From assembly GCA_025351925.1 (NCBI GenBank), contig JANXVC010000221.1, positions 1 to 47,834 of the forward strand: a stretch of 47,834 nt of DNA, in the 5' to 3' direction. Position numbers and translations under genes: made by a program. Within the stretch, counting starts at the first letter, position 1. The number at the start of each line of letters is the position of its first letter. The DNA comes from Rhodospirillales bacterium. Its GTDB lineage: Bacteria; Pseudomonadota; Alphaproteobacteria; Acetobacterales; Acetobacteraceae. Under the pieces are notes generated by a model. It saw only the letters and a list, made by a program, of their open reading frames with translations. It was not told where the DNA came from and did no database searches. This document shows positions 20,274 to 28,115 of the stretch, piece after piece.

Positions 20274-21470
20274 ATGAACATCCATGAATACCAGGCGAAG
20301 GAGCTGCTGCGCGGCTATGGCGTGGCGGTTCTGCAGGGTTTCGTCGCCTGGACGCCCGAGGAGGCGGCGCTCGCGACCGAGAAGTTGCCCGGCCCGGTGT
20401 ATGTGGTGAAGTCGCAGATCCATGCGGGCGGCCGTGGTGCCGGGCATTTTGAGCATGACCCCGCCGGCAAGGGCGGCGTGCGCCTGGCGAAATCCGCCAC
20501 CGACGCGCTCGAGGCGGCACAGGCGATGATCGGCAATGTGCTGGTGACCAAGCAGACCGGCGCCGCCGGCCGCCGGGTCAGCCGGGTGTATGTCGAGGCC
20601 GGCTGCGACATCAAGCGCGAGCTGTACTTGTCGCTGCTGGTGGACCGCGAGACGTCGCGCGTCACCATCGTCGCCTCGACCGAGGGCGGCATGGAGATCG
20701 AGCACGTGGCGGAGACCCAGCCCGACCGGATCATGCGGGTCGCCGTGGACCCAGCCACCGGCATCTTCCCATTCCACGCCCGCAAGCTCGCCTTCGGCCT
20801 GAGGCTGGAAGGCAAGCAGGTCGCCTCGTTCACCAAGTTCGTGCTGGCGATGTATCGCGCCTTCACCGAACTCGACTGCGCGATCGTCGAGATCAACCCG
20901 CTGGTAGTGACTGGGGCCGGCGACATCGTGGCGCTCGACGCCAAGGTGAGTTTTGACGACAACGCCCTGTATCGGCAGCCGGAGCTCGAGAAGCTGCGCG
21001 ACGAGGCGGAGGAGGACCCCAAGGAGCTGGAGGCCGCCAAGTACAGCCTGAACTACATCGCGCTGGATGGCACGATCGGCTGCATGGTGAACGGCGCCGG
21101 CCTCGCGATGGCGACGATGGACATCATCAAGCTGTATGGCGGCGCTCCAGCCAACTTCCTCGACGTCGGCGGCGGCGCTACCAAGGAGCGGGTGACGGCG
21201 GCGTTCAAGATCATCCTGTCCGACCCGCACGTCGAGGGCATCCTGGTCAACATCTTCGGCGGCATCATGCGCTGCGACGTGATCGCGGAGGGCGTGATCG
21301 CGGCCGCGCGTGAAGTCAGTCTGGGCGTGCCATTGGTCGTACGGCTGGAAGGCACCAATGTCGATTTGGGCAAGGAGCTCCTGGCCAAATCCGGCCTGCC
21401 GATCGTCAGCGCCGACAACCTGGCCGACGCCGCCGAAAAGGTCGTCCGCGCCGTGAAGGAGGCCGCATAA
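20274..21470 (+). CDS. sucC: Succinate-CoA ligase (ADP-forming) beta subunit (or malate-CoA ligase beta)
   Basis: [60 protein letters not shown]. Confidence 0.93.
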
Positions 21471-22345
21471 TGGCCGTGCTCGTCAACGCCGACACCCGCG
21501 TCATCACCCAGGGGTTCACGGGTGCGCAGGGCACCTTCCACTCCGAGCAGGCCATCGCCTATGGCACCAAGGTCATGGGCGGCGTGACGCCGGGCAAGGG
21601 CGGCAGCCGGCATTTGAACCTGCCGGTGTTCGACACGGTGGCGCAGGCGCGGGAGGCGACGGGCGCCACGGCGTCGGCGGTTTATGTGCCGCCGCCGTTC
21701 GCCGCCGACGCCATATTGGAGGCGATCGATGCCGAAATCCCGCTGATTATCTGCATCACCGAGGGCATCCCGGTGCTCGACATGGTGCGGGTGAAACGGG
21801 CGTTGTCCGGCACGAAGTCGCGGCTGATCGGACCGAATTGCCCCGGCGTCATCACGCCCGAGGCCTGCAAGATCGGCATCATGCCCGGCCACATCCACCG
21901 ACGCGGCACGGTCGGGATTGTGAGCCGCAGCGGCACGCTGACCTATGAGGCCGTCAGCCAGACCACCGCGGCGGGTCTCGGTCAGAGCACGTGCGTCGGC
22001 ATCGGCGGCGACCCGGTAAAGGGGACCGACTTCATCGAAGTGTTGGAGATGTTCCTGGCCGATCCGGAGACGCGGAGCATCATCATGATCGGCGAGATCG
22101 GCGGGCAGAGCGAGACCGACGCCGCCGAGTTCATTGCCCGCAGCAAGATCAAGAAGCCCACTGTCGGCTTCATCGCCGGCGTGACCGCACCGCCGGGCCG
22201 GCGCATGGGCCATGCGGGTGCGGTGATCAGCGGCGGCAAGGACACCGCGGCGGTCAAGTTCGAGGCGATGCGCATGGCCGGCATCCACGTTGCCGAGAGC
22301 CCGGCAGCGCTTGGCAGCACCATGGTCCGCGCGCTGCAGGGGTGA
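21470..22345 (+). CDS. sucD: Succinate-CoA ligase alpha subunit
   Basis: [61 protein letters not shown] overlap with sucC. Confidence 0.93.
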
Positions 22346-22350
22346 TGTAT

Positions 22351-23280
22351 TCAGTCCGGAGACGACGGGCTGCGTGGGTGACGCTCGCGTTGTGTCAGCC
22401 AGGCGTCGAGCAGCATATGCGGCAGCGTAAGCGCCGCGAGGCCTTGTATGGTCAGCGACAGCAGACGCTCCGGGACGGGGCCGCCATAGAACGGCCAAAG
22501 TCCGGCGCCGATCAGCAGCGTCAATGCGGTGATCGGCAGCGCCAGCAAGATGGCGCTGCGACCGTCCTGGACCCGGGGAGCGCGCATGGGATTGCGGATC
22601 AAAGCGGCGGTATGCGCTGGCGCATGCACGCCGACGAAGTAGATCGCGAACGCAGTCAGCGGCGGGAGCACAACGAAGACACCGGCGAGCAAGTATGGCA
22701 CGATAAGCACGCGCCCGCGCCCGCATAGCACGGTATGGCCGCTCCACACGATGGCCAGTGCGAGCCAAGCCAGCGAGGCGGTCCATAGCCAATCCGGCGG
22801 GTGCGGCAGCGGTGTTCCGGCAGCGGTTGCGAATACAGCGGTCGTCGCAGCCGGGTGGACCAGCGTCGGCACGGCGATCGGCAGGCCGCCCCCCATAACG
22901 GCCTCGAGATGAGTGCCTGACGGCGCATCCTCGGTGCCAAAATGCCAGACCGAAGCCGTTAGGAAGGCCGCAAGCGTCGATACCGGCGCTATGTGCCAGG
23001 CGAGAAGCACCAGCGCGAACAGGCTGAGATAGGGAAGCGAGAACGCCGGGAACCAGGCCAAGCCGAGCCGCGGCCGCAATAGTGCCCGAGCGATCTCGCC
23101 ATCCAGCGCGCCATGCGGCACGCCGAGTATGATGATGGCGAGGAGCGCGCAGATATACTGCAGGCCCAATGGCAGGACCGCGCTGAACGCCAAGGCCGGC
23201 CCTGCGAGCAGGACCGGCCAGGCAGGCAAGCGCAAGGGGGCGGCCGGCCGCCTCTCAGCCAACATAGCGGCCAGGCCCAT
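22351..23280 (-). CDS. blh: Brp/Blh family beta-carotene 15,15'-dioxygenase (retinal-forming)
   Basis: IIILGVPHGALDGEIARALL, SVWHFGTEDA, membrane protein; begins 4 bp after the rhodopsin stop. Confidence 0.85.
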   Translation of the reverse strand: MGLAAMLAERRPAAPLRLPAWPVLLAGPALAFSAVLPLGLQYICALLAIIILGVPHGALDGEIARALLRPRLGLAWFPAFSLPYLSLFALVLLAWHIAPVSTLAAFLTASVWHFGTEDAPSGTHLEAVMGGGLPIAVPTLVHPAATTAVFATAAGTPLPHPPDWLWTASLAWLALAIVWSGHTVLCGRGRVLIVPYLLAGVFVVLPPLTAFAIYFVGVHAPAHTAALIRNPMRAPRVQDGRSAILLALPITALTLLIGAGLWPFYGGPVPERLLSLTIQGLAALTLPHMLLDAWLTQRERHPRSPSSPD

Positions 23281-23284
23281 GGCT

Positions 23285-24040
23285 TTAGGCGGCCTTGCGC
23301 AGCGGTGCAGCGCGCCCGGTCTCCGCGAGATCGCGTTCGGTCGCCTTGGCATCCGACGCGACGGTCATCAGCCCATAGACGACCTTGGCGACGACATCGA
23401 GGATCGCGATGGACAAGACGCTGGCGGTATCGCCGATGTAGTTGAGGCCATCGGGCGCCACGGCGAGGATCAACGGATAGATCAGCCAGAGAACCGACAA
23501 GATCACCGCATTGCGGCGGTAGGTTGCCTGGATGTCATCCCGCTCCAGCGCATTGGCCTGCATGTGCGAGACCCAGATGACGTAATAGACGCCCAGGAAG
23601 GCGATGCAGGACACGAGGAACCAGGTCCACTTGATCCACGCCACCTCCGACGCGCCGAAGAACAGCGCCGTGAAGATCATCAAGAGGTCGGCCAGCACCG
23701 CTCCCGCAATTGCTCCGGCGCGCTTTGGGCCGGAATGCATGGCCGTCATGGACAACGTGACCAGCAGCAACGGCGTGGTGAAGGTCCAGTCGATATATCG
23801 GGCAAAGTAGAAGATGCGTCCGGCGCCGGTCCCGGCAGCGGCAGCGTCGGCACCGAGAATGATCGCGCCCTGACCGGTGGCCATTGCGAAGTAGGAACAG
23901 GCCGCGATGATCGGCACGATGCCGTGCAGCACCGTATGCAGTTCCTCGGCAGCAGTGCGGCGCTTGCCGGTTGCGAGGATCAACAGGCCGCCACCCGTCA
24001 TGATGAAGGTCGTCAGCCAAAGTATCGTATGCGAATCCAT
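23285..24040 (-). CDS. Microbial (type I) rhodopsin, bacteriorhodopsin-like
   Basis: Helix C ARYIDWTFTTPLLLVTLSM; helix G SIAILDVVAKVVYGLM with retinal Lys; 7 TM-like segments. Confidence 0.95.
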   Translation of the reverse strand: MDSHTILWLTTFIMTGGGLLILATGKRRTAAEELHTVLHGIVPIIAACSYFAMATGQGAIILGADAAAAGTGAGRIFYFARYIDWTFTTPLLLVTLSMTAMHSGPKRAGAIAGAVLADLLMIFTALFFGASEVAWIKWTWFLVSCIAFLGVYYVIWVSHMQANALERDDIQATYRRNAVILSVLWLIYPLILAVAPDGLNYIGDTASVLSIAILDVVAKVVYGLMTVASDAKATERDLAETGRAAPLRKAA

Positions 24041-24126: not shown

Positions 24127-25356
24127 TTACAAGTGATGCAGCACCGGACGGGCGCGCGTGAAAGAATGTCGGCCGTTCTTTATGCCCCAAAGTGTTTGTG
24201 CGATCATTGCGACGGCATCGACCGGGCTATGGGCGTCGATCGCCACCAGATTGGCCGCATTGCCAACAGCAATGCCGTATCCCGGCAACCGCAGCAGCCG
24301 CGCCGCCGATCCCGTGATCATGTCCAGGCATCCCGCCAGCTCCGCCGGCCGCGCGACATGGCACACATTGGCGTATAGGTTCGCCATCCGGACCAGCGAA
24401 CCGTCGCCATAAGGCGTGAATGGGTTCAGCACGTTGTTGGTCGCCAGCGAGCACGTCACCCCGGCGCGCCGCAGCGGCTCGGCCGGCACCACGCCGCGCG
24501 GAACCGCATGATCGTGGCTGCGGCCCATCAGATAGAGGTCGGTGGACGGCAGGATCGTGACCGCAACCCCGGCGCGGGCCAGCAGCCCCGCAACTTCGTC
24601 GTAGCGCGGCCGCGGCACCAATGAGAGCTGCGTCGCGTGCCCGACCGTAACCCGCCCGCCCCAACCGTACTCCTCGGTCTTGCGGCACACGTATTCGATC
24701 TGCATGCCGTCCGTGGTCTCGGCGAGGTCGAGATGCATGTCGATATCCACGTCGAACTCGCGGGCGATGGCGAAGATGCGGTCGATCTGCCCGCGCGGGT
24801 CCGTGTCGGTGTAGGGCGCGGCACCGAGCACCTTGGCGCCGCGACGCAGAGCCTGCATCAACAAATCCTCGGTCCCCGGGCTGTTCAGCAGGCCCTCCTG
24901 TGGGAACACGCAGAGCTCCATTTCGACGGCCCAGGCATAGTCCCGCGCCAACTGGCTGACGCCCTCGAAGCCGGCCATGCCGATCACGGGATCCAGCTCG
25001 ACATGGGTGCGGACGTGCATTGTGCCGTGGGCGATGCAGCGCTGGAGCGTCTGACGGCCGCGGGCATAGACGTCCTCGGCGGTGAAGCCCCGCTTGGCCT
25101 TCGCCGTCTCCCGCACTGCCTCGGCCAGCGTGCCCTCCTCGGCGCGGCAGCGGTCCAGGATGCAGGTCTTGTCGAGGTGGATGTGCGTCTCAATCAGGCC
25201 GGGCACGACCAAGCAGTCCTCGGCGTCGAGCTCCGGCCCATCGCCATGCAAAGCGGGCTCGATGGCGGCGATGCGGCCCGCTGCAATGCCGATGTCGCAG
25301 GTGCGCAACGCCTCCCCATCGAGAATACAGGCGCGGCGCACTATAAGCTCAAGCAT
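24127..25356 (-). CDS. Amidohydrolase family protein (cytosine-deaminase/CodA-like)
   Basis: VPGLIETHIHLDKTCILDR; HGTMHVRTHVELDP; HLDLAETTDG; ATNNVLNPFTPYGDGS. Confidence 0.88.
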   Translation of the reverse strand: MLELIVRRACILDGEALRTCDIGIAAGRIAAIEPALHGDGPELDAEDCLVVPGLIETHIHLDKTCILDRCRAEEGTLAEAVRETAKAKRGFTAEDVYARGRQTLQRCIAHGTMHVRTHVELDPVIGMAGFEGVSQLARDYAWAVEMELCVFPQEGLLNSPGTEDLLMQALRRGAKVLGAAPYTDTDPRGQIDRIFAIAREFDVDIDMHLDLAETTDGMQIEYVCRKTEEYGWGGRVTVGHATQLSLVPRPRYDEVAGLLARAGVAVTILPSTDLYLMGRSHDHAVPRGVVPAEPLRRAGVTCSLATNNVLNPFTPYGDGSLVRMANLYANVCHVARPAELAGCLDMITGSAARLLRLPGYGIAVGNAANLVAIDAHSPVDAVAMIAQTLWGIKNGRHSFTRARPVLHHL

Positions 25357-25386: not shown

Positions 25387-25965
25387 TCAGCTAGTGCGGC
25401 GCTTGCCGAACAGCTCCAGCCGCAGCGAGATCAGGTCGAAACCAAGCTGCTCGGCGATCGAGCGGATCAGCTTCTCGTGCTCGGCATTCTTGAACTCCAG
25501 CACATGGCCGGTCTCGACGTCGATCAGGTGGTGATGCTGGCCGTGATCGGTCGGCTCATAGCGCGAGCGCCCGTTGCCGAAGTCGCGGCGGTGCAGGATG
25601 CCCTTTTCCTCGAACAGCCGCACGGTGCGATACACCGTGGCGATCGAGATATGGGCGTCGAGCTGGACGGCGCGGCGATACAACTCCTCGACGTCCGGGT
25701 GGTCCTCGGCCTCGGACAGCACGCGGGCGATGACCCGGCGCTGCCCGGTCATCTTCAGCCCGTGCTGCACGCATAGCCGCTCGATGCTCTGTCCCGCACG
25801 GTCGAACTGCGGCGCCGCCGTCTTCGCCGGACGCGCGGCGGCGGCCTTTGGCCTGACGCCGCCCTGCCGTGCCAGATCGCTCAATCGAACACTCCGATCT
25901 CCGGCGCCCGGAGGGTCCAGGCGCCGAGCCTTCTTTGCGCCCGGGCGGCTGTTGGCGTCAAACAC
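25387..25965 (-). CDS. Fur family transcriptional regulator (Fur/Mur-like)
   Basis: LKMTGQRRVIARVLSEAEDHPDVEELYRRAV...ISIATVYRTVRLFEEKGI...HGQHHHLIDVETG; start uncertain (GTG overlapping FTR1 stop). Confidence 0.9.
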   Translation of the reverse strand: MFDANSRPGAKKARRLDPPGAGDRSVRLSDLARQGGVRPKAAAARPAKTAAPQFDRAGQSIERLCVQHGLKMTGQRRVIARVLSEAEDHPDVEELYRRAVQLDAHISIATVYRTVRLFEEKGILHRRDFGNGRSRYEPTDHGQHHHLIDVETGHVLEFKNAEHEKLIRSIAEQLGFDLISLRLELFGKRRTS

Positions 25966-26815
25966 GATGTGGCTCCCTAGCGCGTTGTGGCGCAGTGGTG
26001 ACCGGCTGCGATCCAGCGGGATGCGAAGCGGCCCGGCCGGCCACCAGCAACGCCGCCAACGTCGCGCCATACACCGCAAGTTGCAACCCCGCCGGACGGT
26101 CGGTGTAGCCAACCAAGGCGTGCAGCGCGCGGCCGATGATGCTCTTTTGATCCAGCACGGCCGAGCTATCCCAGATCTGGGCGCCCCAGGCCGGCAGCAG
26201 GTCGGCCTGGATCAGGAACCCCGCCGCCTGCGCCGCCATGCCCGCCGCCAGCAACGACAGCATGATATTGGTGACGCGGAACAGCTGCCGGGTTGGGATG
26301 CTGACGAGCCCGCGATACAGCAGGGCCGCGACCGCGCCGCCGCCCAGCAGGCCCAAGACACCGCCACTCAGCAGTGCTAACCCGCCATCGCCGCCGACCG
26401 TGAGGCCATACAGGAACAGCGCGACCTCCGACCCCTCCCGCAGCACCGCGACGCCGACCACGACCGCGAGCGCCATCAAAGTGCGGCTGCCGTCCGACAC
26501 GCCGCGGCCGAGCGCCTTCATCTCGCCAGCCATCTCCCGCCCGTGCCGCGCCATCCAGACGTTGTGCCAGCCCAGCATGACGGCGGCGATCAGCAGGATG
26601 CCGGCATTGAACACCTCCTGTCCGGAGCCCTGCATCGCGTCGCCGATCGCGCCGGCGAACGCCGCGACCAGGCAAGCGCCCAACAGGCCGCCCAGCACGC
26701 CGCCCGCCACCCATCCGGCCCGCCCGGCCACGCCGCGGGTGGCGCTGAGCACGATGCCGAGGATCAGCCCCGCCTCGAACACTTCGCGGAATACGATCAG
26801 CGCGCTTGCCAGCAT
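25958..26815 (-). CDS. FTR1 family iron permease (EfeU-like)
   Basis: Two RExxE motifs (FREVFEAGLI; LREGSEVALFLYG), multi-TM. Confidence 0.92.
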   Translation of the reverse strand: MLASALIVFREVFEAGLILGIVLSATRGVAGRAGWVAGGVLGGLLGACLVAAFAGAIGDAMQGSGQEVFNAGILLIAAVMLGWHNVWMARHGREMAGEMKALGRGVSDGSRTLMALAVVVGVAVLREGSEVALFLYGLTVGGDGGLALLSGGVLGLLGGGAVAALLYRGLVSIPTRQLFRVTNIMLSLLAAGMAAQAAGFLIQADLLPAWGAQIWDSSAVLDQKSIIGRALHALVGYTDRPAGLQLAVYGATLAALLVAGRAASHPAGSQPVTTAPQRAREPHRV

Positions 26816-26819
26816 GGCC

Positions 26820-27164
26820 CTATTCTCCGGCTGCGATCAGCACGCCGCGCGCCTGATCCTGGTGGAACTCGTCGGCGAATGGATAGTGCCCCGCGGTCAG
26901 CGGTCCAACCCGGATTGAGGCCTCGCGCCCGGCGGAGATGATTTTCTCGGCGCCGAGCTCGTGGCTTTCGAACTCGGCAGGGGTGTCGTCGGCGTTATGC
27001 ACGATTAAAATCAGGCGCTTGCCGGCCGGCACAGCGAGCTCGGCCGGGTCGAAGGTATGGTTCTTAATTGTCAGGCGGAACGTCACGGGATCGTCGGCCC
27101 GGACCGGGACGGACATTGCCATCAAGGTGGCGAGAGCGGTGACGCCCGTCAGATAGACCCGCAT
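26820..27164 (-). CDS. Periplasmic cupredoxin-domain protein, probable iron-uptake partner
   Basis: Signal peptide; FRLTIKNHTFDPAELAVPAGKRLILIVHNADDTPAEFESHELGAEKII (Cupredoxin_1-like). Confidence 0.87.
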   Translation of the reverse strand: MRVYLTGVTALATLMAMSVPVRADDPVTFRLTIKNHTFDPAELAVPAGKRLILIVHNADDTPAEFESHELGAEKIISAGREASIRVGPLTAGHYPFADEFHQDQARGVLIAAGE

Positions 27165-27191
27165 GGAACGCTTCCTGAAGTTGTTGCAACC

Positions 27192-27210
27192 GACTCTCAT
27201 TTGCATTATC
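27192..27210 (-). promoter_or_regulatory. Candidate Fur box
   Basis: GATAATGCAAATGAGAGTC, 13/19 to classical GATAATGATAATCATTATC. Confidence 0.45.
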
Positions 27211-27221
27211 TCCCTCCCAGA

Positions 27222-27236
27222 TGCAAGTGGTTTGCA
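27222..27236. promoter_or_regulatory. TGCAA-N5-TTGCA palindrome in divergent promoter region
   Basis: TGCAAGTGGTTTGCA. Confidence 0.5.
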
Positions 27237-27251
27237 ATTGGAGGGCATGTG

Positions 27252-28115
27252 ATGCGGCAGCGGAGGACAGCAATGTGGGGCGGCCTGGCGGTCGTGGCAG
27301 CTGGTACCTGGCTCGCGGCAACGCAGCCGACTGGCGCCGCGCCAGCCCTGCGCCCCGAGTTCACCGCCGCGATCTGCAACGCGCATCCGCCCCGCCTGAC
27401 GCATGCCTATGCTCGCGGGATCGCATTCGTGGCGCCTGGCACCGTCACTGCGGTTGCCGATACCGCCATCAGCAGCGAGGATCATGCCGAGCTGCTGTTC
27501 AAGATGGGCCTGCTGGAGGGCCATCTGATGGTCGGGCGCGAGCTGATCGACGCCAACCAGACCCAGCTGGCGCTGCCGCATTTCGGCCATCCGATCCGCG
27601 AGCTGTACGACGACATCTCCGGCGAGCTGCAGCGCCGCGGCGTCACCGGCTTCGACGGCGAGCTGATCGCGCTCGAGGCCTTGGCCGCCGGCAAGCCGAC
27701 CGACCCGGCGACATCAGCGCAGTACGACAAGGTGATCCGCATCATCGCCGCGGTGCGCGCCACTGTGCCAGCGGGACTGCTGGACAATGAGCGCTTCATG
27801 CTCGGCGTGCTGGGGGAGATCGCGACGATTTCGTCCGAAGACTACAGCGAGTCGATCGAGGGTGGGCGGATCGAGAAGCCGGTCGAGTATCACGATAGCC
27901 GCGGCTACTTGGAATACGCCGACAAGGAACTGCGGCGCCTGGAGGGGCGGCCTGACCTGCGCGGTTCGCCGGGCCTGGTGCTGGCGCGCGCGAAGCTTAC
28001 GGAGCTGCGCGCCATCACCGGGATGCTGCTTCCACCGGAGCGCCCGCTGCTGTCGGTCGCCGCCTACAAGGCGATCGTCGCACAGTTCAAGCAGGCGGCC
28101 GCACTCCGCGCCTGA
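27252..28115 (+). CDS. Uncharacterised exported alpha-helical protein, divergent from iron operon
   Basis: N-terminal signal-like WGGLAVVAAGTWLAATQPTGAAPA; HAELLFKMGLLEGHLMVGRELI; no family recognised. Confidence 0.75.
   Translation: MRQRRTAMWGGLAVVAAGTWLAATQPTGAAPALRPEFTAAICNAHPPRLTHAYARGIAFVAPGTVTAVADTAISSEDHAELLFKMGLLEGHLMVGRELIDANQTQLALPHFGHPIRELYDDISGELQRRGVTGFDGELIALEALAAGKPTDPATSAQYDKVIRIIAAVRATVPAGLLDNERFMLGVLGEIATISSEDYSESIEGGRIEKPVEYHDSRGYLEYADKELRRLEGRPDLRGSPGLVLARAKLTELRAITGMLLPPERPLLSVAAYKAIVAQFKQAAALRA

Follow-up and report, generated by a model that had tools for sequence, protein, structure and literature searches.

Genomic context of the rhodopsin locus

The rhodopsin gene examined here lies in a 47,834-nucleotide stretch of contig JANXVC010000221.1 (hereafter the window), which belongs to a lichen-associated Acetobacteraceae genome (GCA_025351925.1; G000), congeneric with the lichen MAG from which locus L003 comes. 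The gene (positions 23285-24040, minus strand) encodes a microbial rhodopsin of 251 aa (PF01036, E=5e-40), an assignment based also on alignment, residue conservation, a phylogenetic tree and an AlphaFold2 model. On the same strand it is followed by blh (22351-23280), encoding a Brp/Blh beta-carotene 15,15'-dioxygenase of 309 aa (PF15461, E=1e-39; TIGR03753, 1e-50), which scores 172.6 bits against TIGR03753 and is thus above the curated cut-off of 95.25. The blh start was placed at the ATG at 23280; a longer reading frame listed from 23352 (333 aa) overlaps the rhodopsin gene. Only 4 bp (23281-23284, minus strand) separate the rhodopsin TAA (23287-23285) from the blh ATG (23280-23278), a spacing implying translational coupling within one operon. 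Profile matches and sequence therefore confirm the initial annotation of a self-contained module for opsin and retinal synthesis with its two genes 4 bp apart.

The pairing is widespread among related rhodopsins. Among the matches listed, 57 of the 60 loci of the clade delineated below have blh directly downstream of the rhodopsin gene and on its strand, often at a distance of 4-5 bp or with a 1-bp overlap. Since genomes of the same genus keep the gene at 82-84% identity and in the same gene order, the locus is not a product of chance. In one same-genus MAG (L004 2640-2800, equivalent to L050), blh is absent between the rhodopsin gene and sucD with the neighbours retained, an apparent local loss.

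The downstream neighbours are the convergently transcribed sucC-sucD (20274-22345, plus strand; succinate/malate-CoA ligase beta and alpha subunits, NCBIfam equivalog matches), whose order is matched in same-genus loci L004 and L005. Upstream lies a cytosine-deaminase-like amidohydrolase (24127-25356, minus strand; PF07969), whose place in the gene order is shared by the genus's three other genomes and which has, as far as is known, no functional tie to the rhodopsin. Across the genus Fur - amidohydrolase - rhodopsin - blh - sucD - sucC is a conserved gene order at a fixed place. A Fur-family regulator, an FTR1-type iron permease and a cupredoxin-domain protein (window 25387-27590, minus strand) form an iron-uptake cluster adjoining the rhodopsin locus on its upstream side.

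Carotenoid supply and other phototrophy genes of the host

Neither a lycopene cyclase nor a full-length crtI was found on the contig of the window, and both are encoded elsewhere in this genome, on other contigs, which bears out the earlier expectation that beta-carotene must come from elsewhere. A second rhodopsin, with a DTE motif, is located on contig C269 (7231-12199; L068), where its neighbours are a polyprenyl (GGPP-type) synthase, a phytoene-synthase-like gene, a lycopene cyclase and a second blh. Contig C486 (L075) carries a further blh and lycopene cyclase together with an intact crtI, and with these two contigs the beta-carotene supply is accounted for. In the C269 cluster crtI persists only as an N-terminal remnant (L068 8970-9197; 76 of 504 positions). 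The crtB-crtY-blh part of C486, which has no rhodopsin match, is 83.5% identical to the C269 copy, and the two copies represent either a paralogous cluster or a strain mixture.

The source genome also encodes pufL, pufM, pufC, bchC, bchX, bchY and bchZ on contig C256 (L076). Each of the genus's four genomes combines reaction-centre genes with the DTT rhodopsin, so that dual phototrophy is a genus-wide potential, and the host is, on its gene content, a potential dual phototroph. Dual phototrophy as such is already known (PMC7701988), and a survey of lichens that maps such lineages reported bacteriochlorophyll-based phototrophy in lichen Acetobacteraceae, with rhodopsins unmentioned (PMC11542873).

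Helix C motif and conserved residues

Alignment of the helix C segment ARYIDWTFTTPLLLVTL to bacteriorhodopsin (bR) equates D84 with bR85, T88 with bR89, L92 with bR93 and T95 with bR96, giving a DTT motif. These assignments agree with the residues first read from the sequence, namely D85, T89 and T96 in bR numbering, the lack of a carboxylate at bR96, and a leucine at bR93 that is consistent with green absorption. Both the retinal lysine K219 (bR216) and the counterion D215 (bR212) are present; together with the PF01036 match and a seven-helix model, K219 identifies the protein as a type-1 rhodopsin. The proton-pump residues of the bR type (D85, T89 and D212) are accordingly intact, and T95 occupies the position at which DTD and DTE pumps have their carboxylate donor.

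In helix B, H39 occupies the position of bR T46. This histidine is invariant among the matches listed (60/60 within the clade, 5/5 among the mirror proteorhodopsins, 65/65 in all), as are D84, T88, Y188, D215 and K219. Glutamate E32 is likewise invariant in the clade (60/60 of the matches listed) and is absent from the mirror proteorhodopsins; it lies on the same helix face as H39, two helical turns away at helix B's cytoplasmic end. The initial annotation had allowed for another carboxylate supplying the donor. None was found at the donor site among the conserved acidic residues, of which only E32 fits the location, and E32 is probably too far away to stand in directly for D96. The proposal of a donor-independent photocycle, for its part, overlooked the invariant H39. 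On the clade tree the bR96 residue changes at least eight times among Gly, Ser, Thr and Ala and H39 never does; because residue 96 drifts while H39 stays fixed, H39 rather than residue 96 is the constrained element.

Phylogenetic placement

Close relatives of the window rhodopsin (53-84% identity) come from lichen- or leaf-associated Acetobacteraceae, Beijerinckiaceae and Methylobacterium, and have DTT, DTS, DTA or DTG motifs. A maximum-likelihood tree computed without the bR96 column placed the protein inside a clade of 60 sequences (support 100/97) comprising, among the matches listed, Methylobacterium and lichen or phyllosphere Acetobacteraceae, with 40 DTG, nine DTS, eight DTT and three DTA members. 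Together with SpaR, PspR and their relatives this group forms a clade of 65 sequences (support 100/98). Placement within the mirror proteorhodopsin (SpaR/PspR) clade alone was rejected (p-AU 0.018).

The 60-sequence clade corresponds to the group that Okhrimenko et al. 2023 called "MpR-like", in which a DTT rhodopsin is already listed and which is sister to the mirror proteorhodopsins SpaR and PspR (PMC10154332). MpR itself was represented in the tree set by two Methylorubrum relatives with E32/E33/D35 and a DTG motif. The residues E32, E33 and D35 (MpR numbering) are given as features of "most" MpR-like members (PMC10154332); the window rhodopsin has E32, E33 and H35 at these positions, and D35 is found in 32 of the 60 clade members among the matches listed. 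The DTT motif, initially regarded as an oddity outside the known groups, therefore falls within a published DTG/DTS/DTA/DTT assemblage, a placement of the kind that the initial annotation had itself named as counting against it, and the protein is a real and intact addition to a described, thinly characterised clade. To our knowledge, no DTT rhodopsin of this clade has been functionally assayed.

The best tree does not have a single origin of DTT, and a constraint to a single origin was not rejected (p-AU 0.15). The DTS copies of Methylobacterium and of a "Betaproteobacteria" lichen MAG (L006, L009 and L010) nest among Acetobacteraceae sequences, suggesting horizontal transfer, or MAG misbinning, in lichen and leaf habitats.

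Comparison with characterised rhodopsins

With the MpR-like DTG and DTS rhodopsins of Methylobacterium the window protein shares the clade, invariant H39 and E32, the rhodopsin-blh pair and a non-carboxylate at bR96; it differs from the DTG members in having Thr rather than Gly at that position, and identity to the Methylobacterium proteins is 53-72%. The mirror proteorhodopsins (SpaR 8anq, PspR 7w74 and PaR) constitute the sister clade and have in common with it the fold, the histidine at the bR T46 position (SpaR H37, equivalent to H39), D85/T89/Leu93, S141/C142 and, in Sphingomonas and Pantoea, the rhodopsin-blh operon. They are ~40% identical to the window protein and lack its E32. The SpaR signatures H32 and E92 are missing from the window protein (L34 and S103). 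Of the SpaR positions H32, H33, S121 and S199, H32 is L34 and S121 is G129 here, and H33 and S199 are matched by H35 and S207. In the PDB, the best fold match to an AlphaFold2 model of the window rhodopsin (mean pLDDT 88) was SpaR 8anq (E=2e-15); the leading structural matches also included 7w74, the DTG rhodopsin of Pseudomonas putida. The glycylhalorhodopsin of Salinarimonas soli (8xx8) has a similar fold and 39% identity, but differs in its TTG motif, the lack of an acceptor Asp and a Gln at the H39 position.

SpaR is an outward proton pump at acid pH, and its H37, which in the crystal structure lies close enough to the bR96 residue (S84) for a hydrogen bond and opens onto a cytoplasmic cavity, has been proposed as a donor or gate (PMC10154332). 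Outward pumping confined to acid pH and inhibition by zinc are counted among the traits of the SpaR clade. As substitution of H37 by Lys, Arg or Asn still permits pumping, this histidine may be a gate and not an obligate donor, and above pH 6 the Schiff base of SpaR is reprotonated from the bulk (PMC10154332). Replacement of residue 96 by Asp or Glu, suggested in the initial annotation, has already been made in SpaR (S84D/E), where M decay was faster and pumping lower (PMC10154332).

Proposed function and alternatives

The gene pair is in our view probably an operon of opsin and retinal synthase whose opsin, from the MpR-like DTG/DTS/DTA/DTT clade, is a light-driven outward proton pump. An outward pump with histidine-based proton uptake is favoured because H39 is invariant, because SpaR H37 provides an analogy and because SpaR is the best structural match. 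For the ion, its direction, the pH dependence and the proton path we infer the following. Light would isomerise the retinal bound to K219 and the Schiff-base proton would pass to D84, as comparison with bR and SpaR suggests. The Schiff base would be reprotonated from the cytoplasmic side without a helix C carboxylate, a proton entering the cytoplasmic cavity and reaching the Schiff base via H39 of helix B, which would be expected to hydrogen-bond T95 as SpaR H37 does S84; E32 might plausibly collect protons. If it behaves like SpaR, the protein should pump best while H39 is protonated, under acid conditions such as those of lichens, and would be slow at neutral or alkaline pH. Against a proton pump stand the Li+/Na+ transport reported for MpR, the only assayed member of the clade, the absent SpaR signatures H32 and E92, and the possibility that SpaR H37 is a gate.

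The main rival, a light-driven Li+/Na+ pump, is in our estimate unlikely. Cho et al. 2021, cited in PMC10154332, reported MpR (Methylobacterium populi, DTG) to be such a pump, and it is on this report that the label "sodium pumps" for the MpR-like clade rests in PMC10154332. The window protein shares its clade with Methylorubrum and Methylobacterium rhodopsins of the E32/E33/D35 pattern, and E32 is invariant in this clade and missing from the proton-pumping sister clade. However, the claim comes from a single protein, on a branch of ~55% identity, the helix C motif is DT(T) rather than NDQ with a proton acceptor and counterion of the bR type intact, and D35 of MpR is replaced by H35. A further reading, which we hold to be quite unlikely, is that the DTT branch has a clade-specific E32-H39-T95 route carrying H+ or Na+/Li+ depending on pH and operating, in acid lichens, in the same cell as a bacteriochlorophyll photosystem and a second, DTE rhodopsin, so that one bacterium would have three light-energy devices.

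Very unlikely, in our judgement, is a pump without a donor, or a slow photocycler, whose Schiff base takes its proton directly from the bulk by way of a wide cavity; H39 would then be only a gate and the protein perhaps mainly a weak pump or a sensor. Such a mechanism would accord with the missing carboxylate at bR96, with the bulk reprotonation of SpaR above pH 6 and with the tolerated H37 substitutions (PMC10154332). Against it stands the invariance of H39 in 65/65 sequences among the matches listed. There is also no transducer gene beside the rhodopsin, the next gene being blh in 57/60 loci of the matches listed. A blh gene beside a rhodopsin is usual for pumps. Membership of the marine FArhodopsins (DTT/DTL/DNI), proteorhodopsin-derived proteins reported to show neither retinal binding nor pumping in E. 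coli (PMC10308929), has next to no chance of being correct, as the identical triplet is all that is shared and the tree rejects it, with the proteorhodopsin-family DTT and DNI sequences remote from the window protein across a 100/100 branch.

The window rhodopsin draws its interest from the fixed histidine, the choice between H+ and Na+, and the potential dual-phototroph host. With the bR96 residue free to drift among Gly, Ser, Thr and Ala in this clade and the helix B histidine fixed, classification of rhodopsins by three-letter motif is misleading. The protein makes a DTT representative available for deciding between H+ and Na+ pumping in the MpR-like clade, and it comes from a genus of lichen Acetobacteraceae in which two rhodopsins and a photosynthetic reaction centre are paired in one genome.
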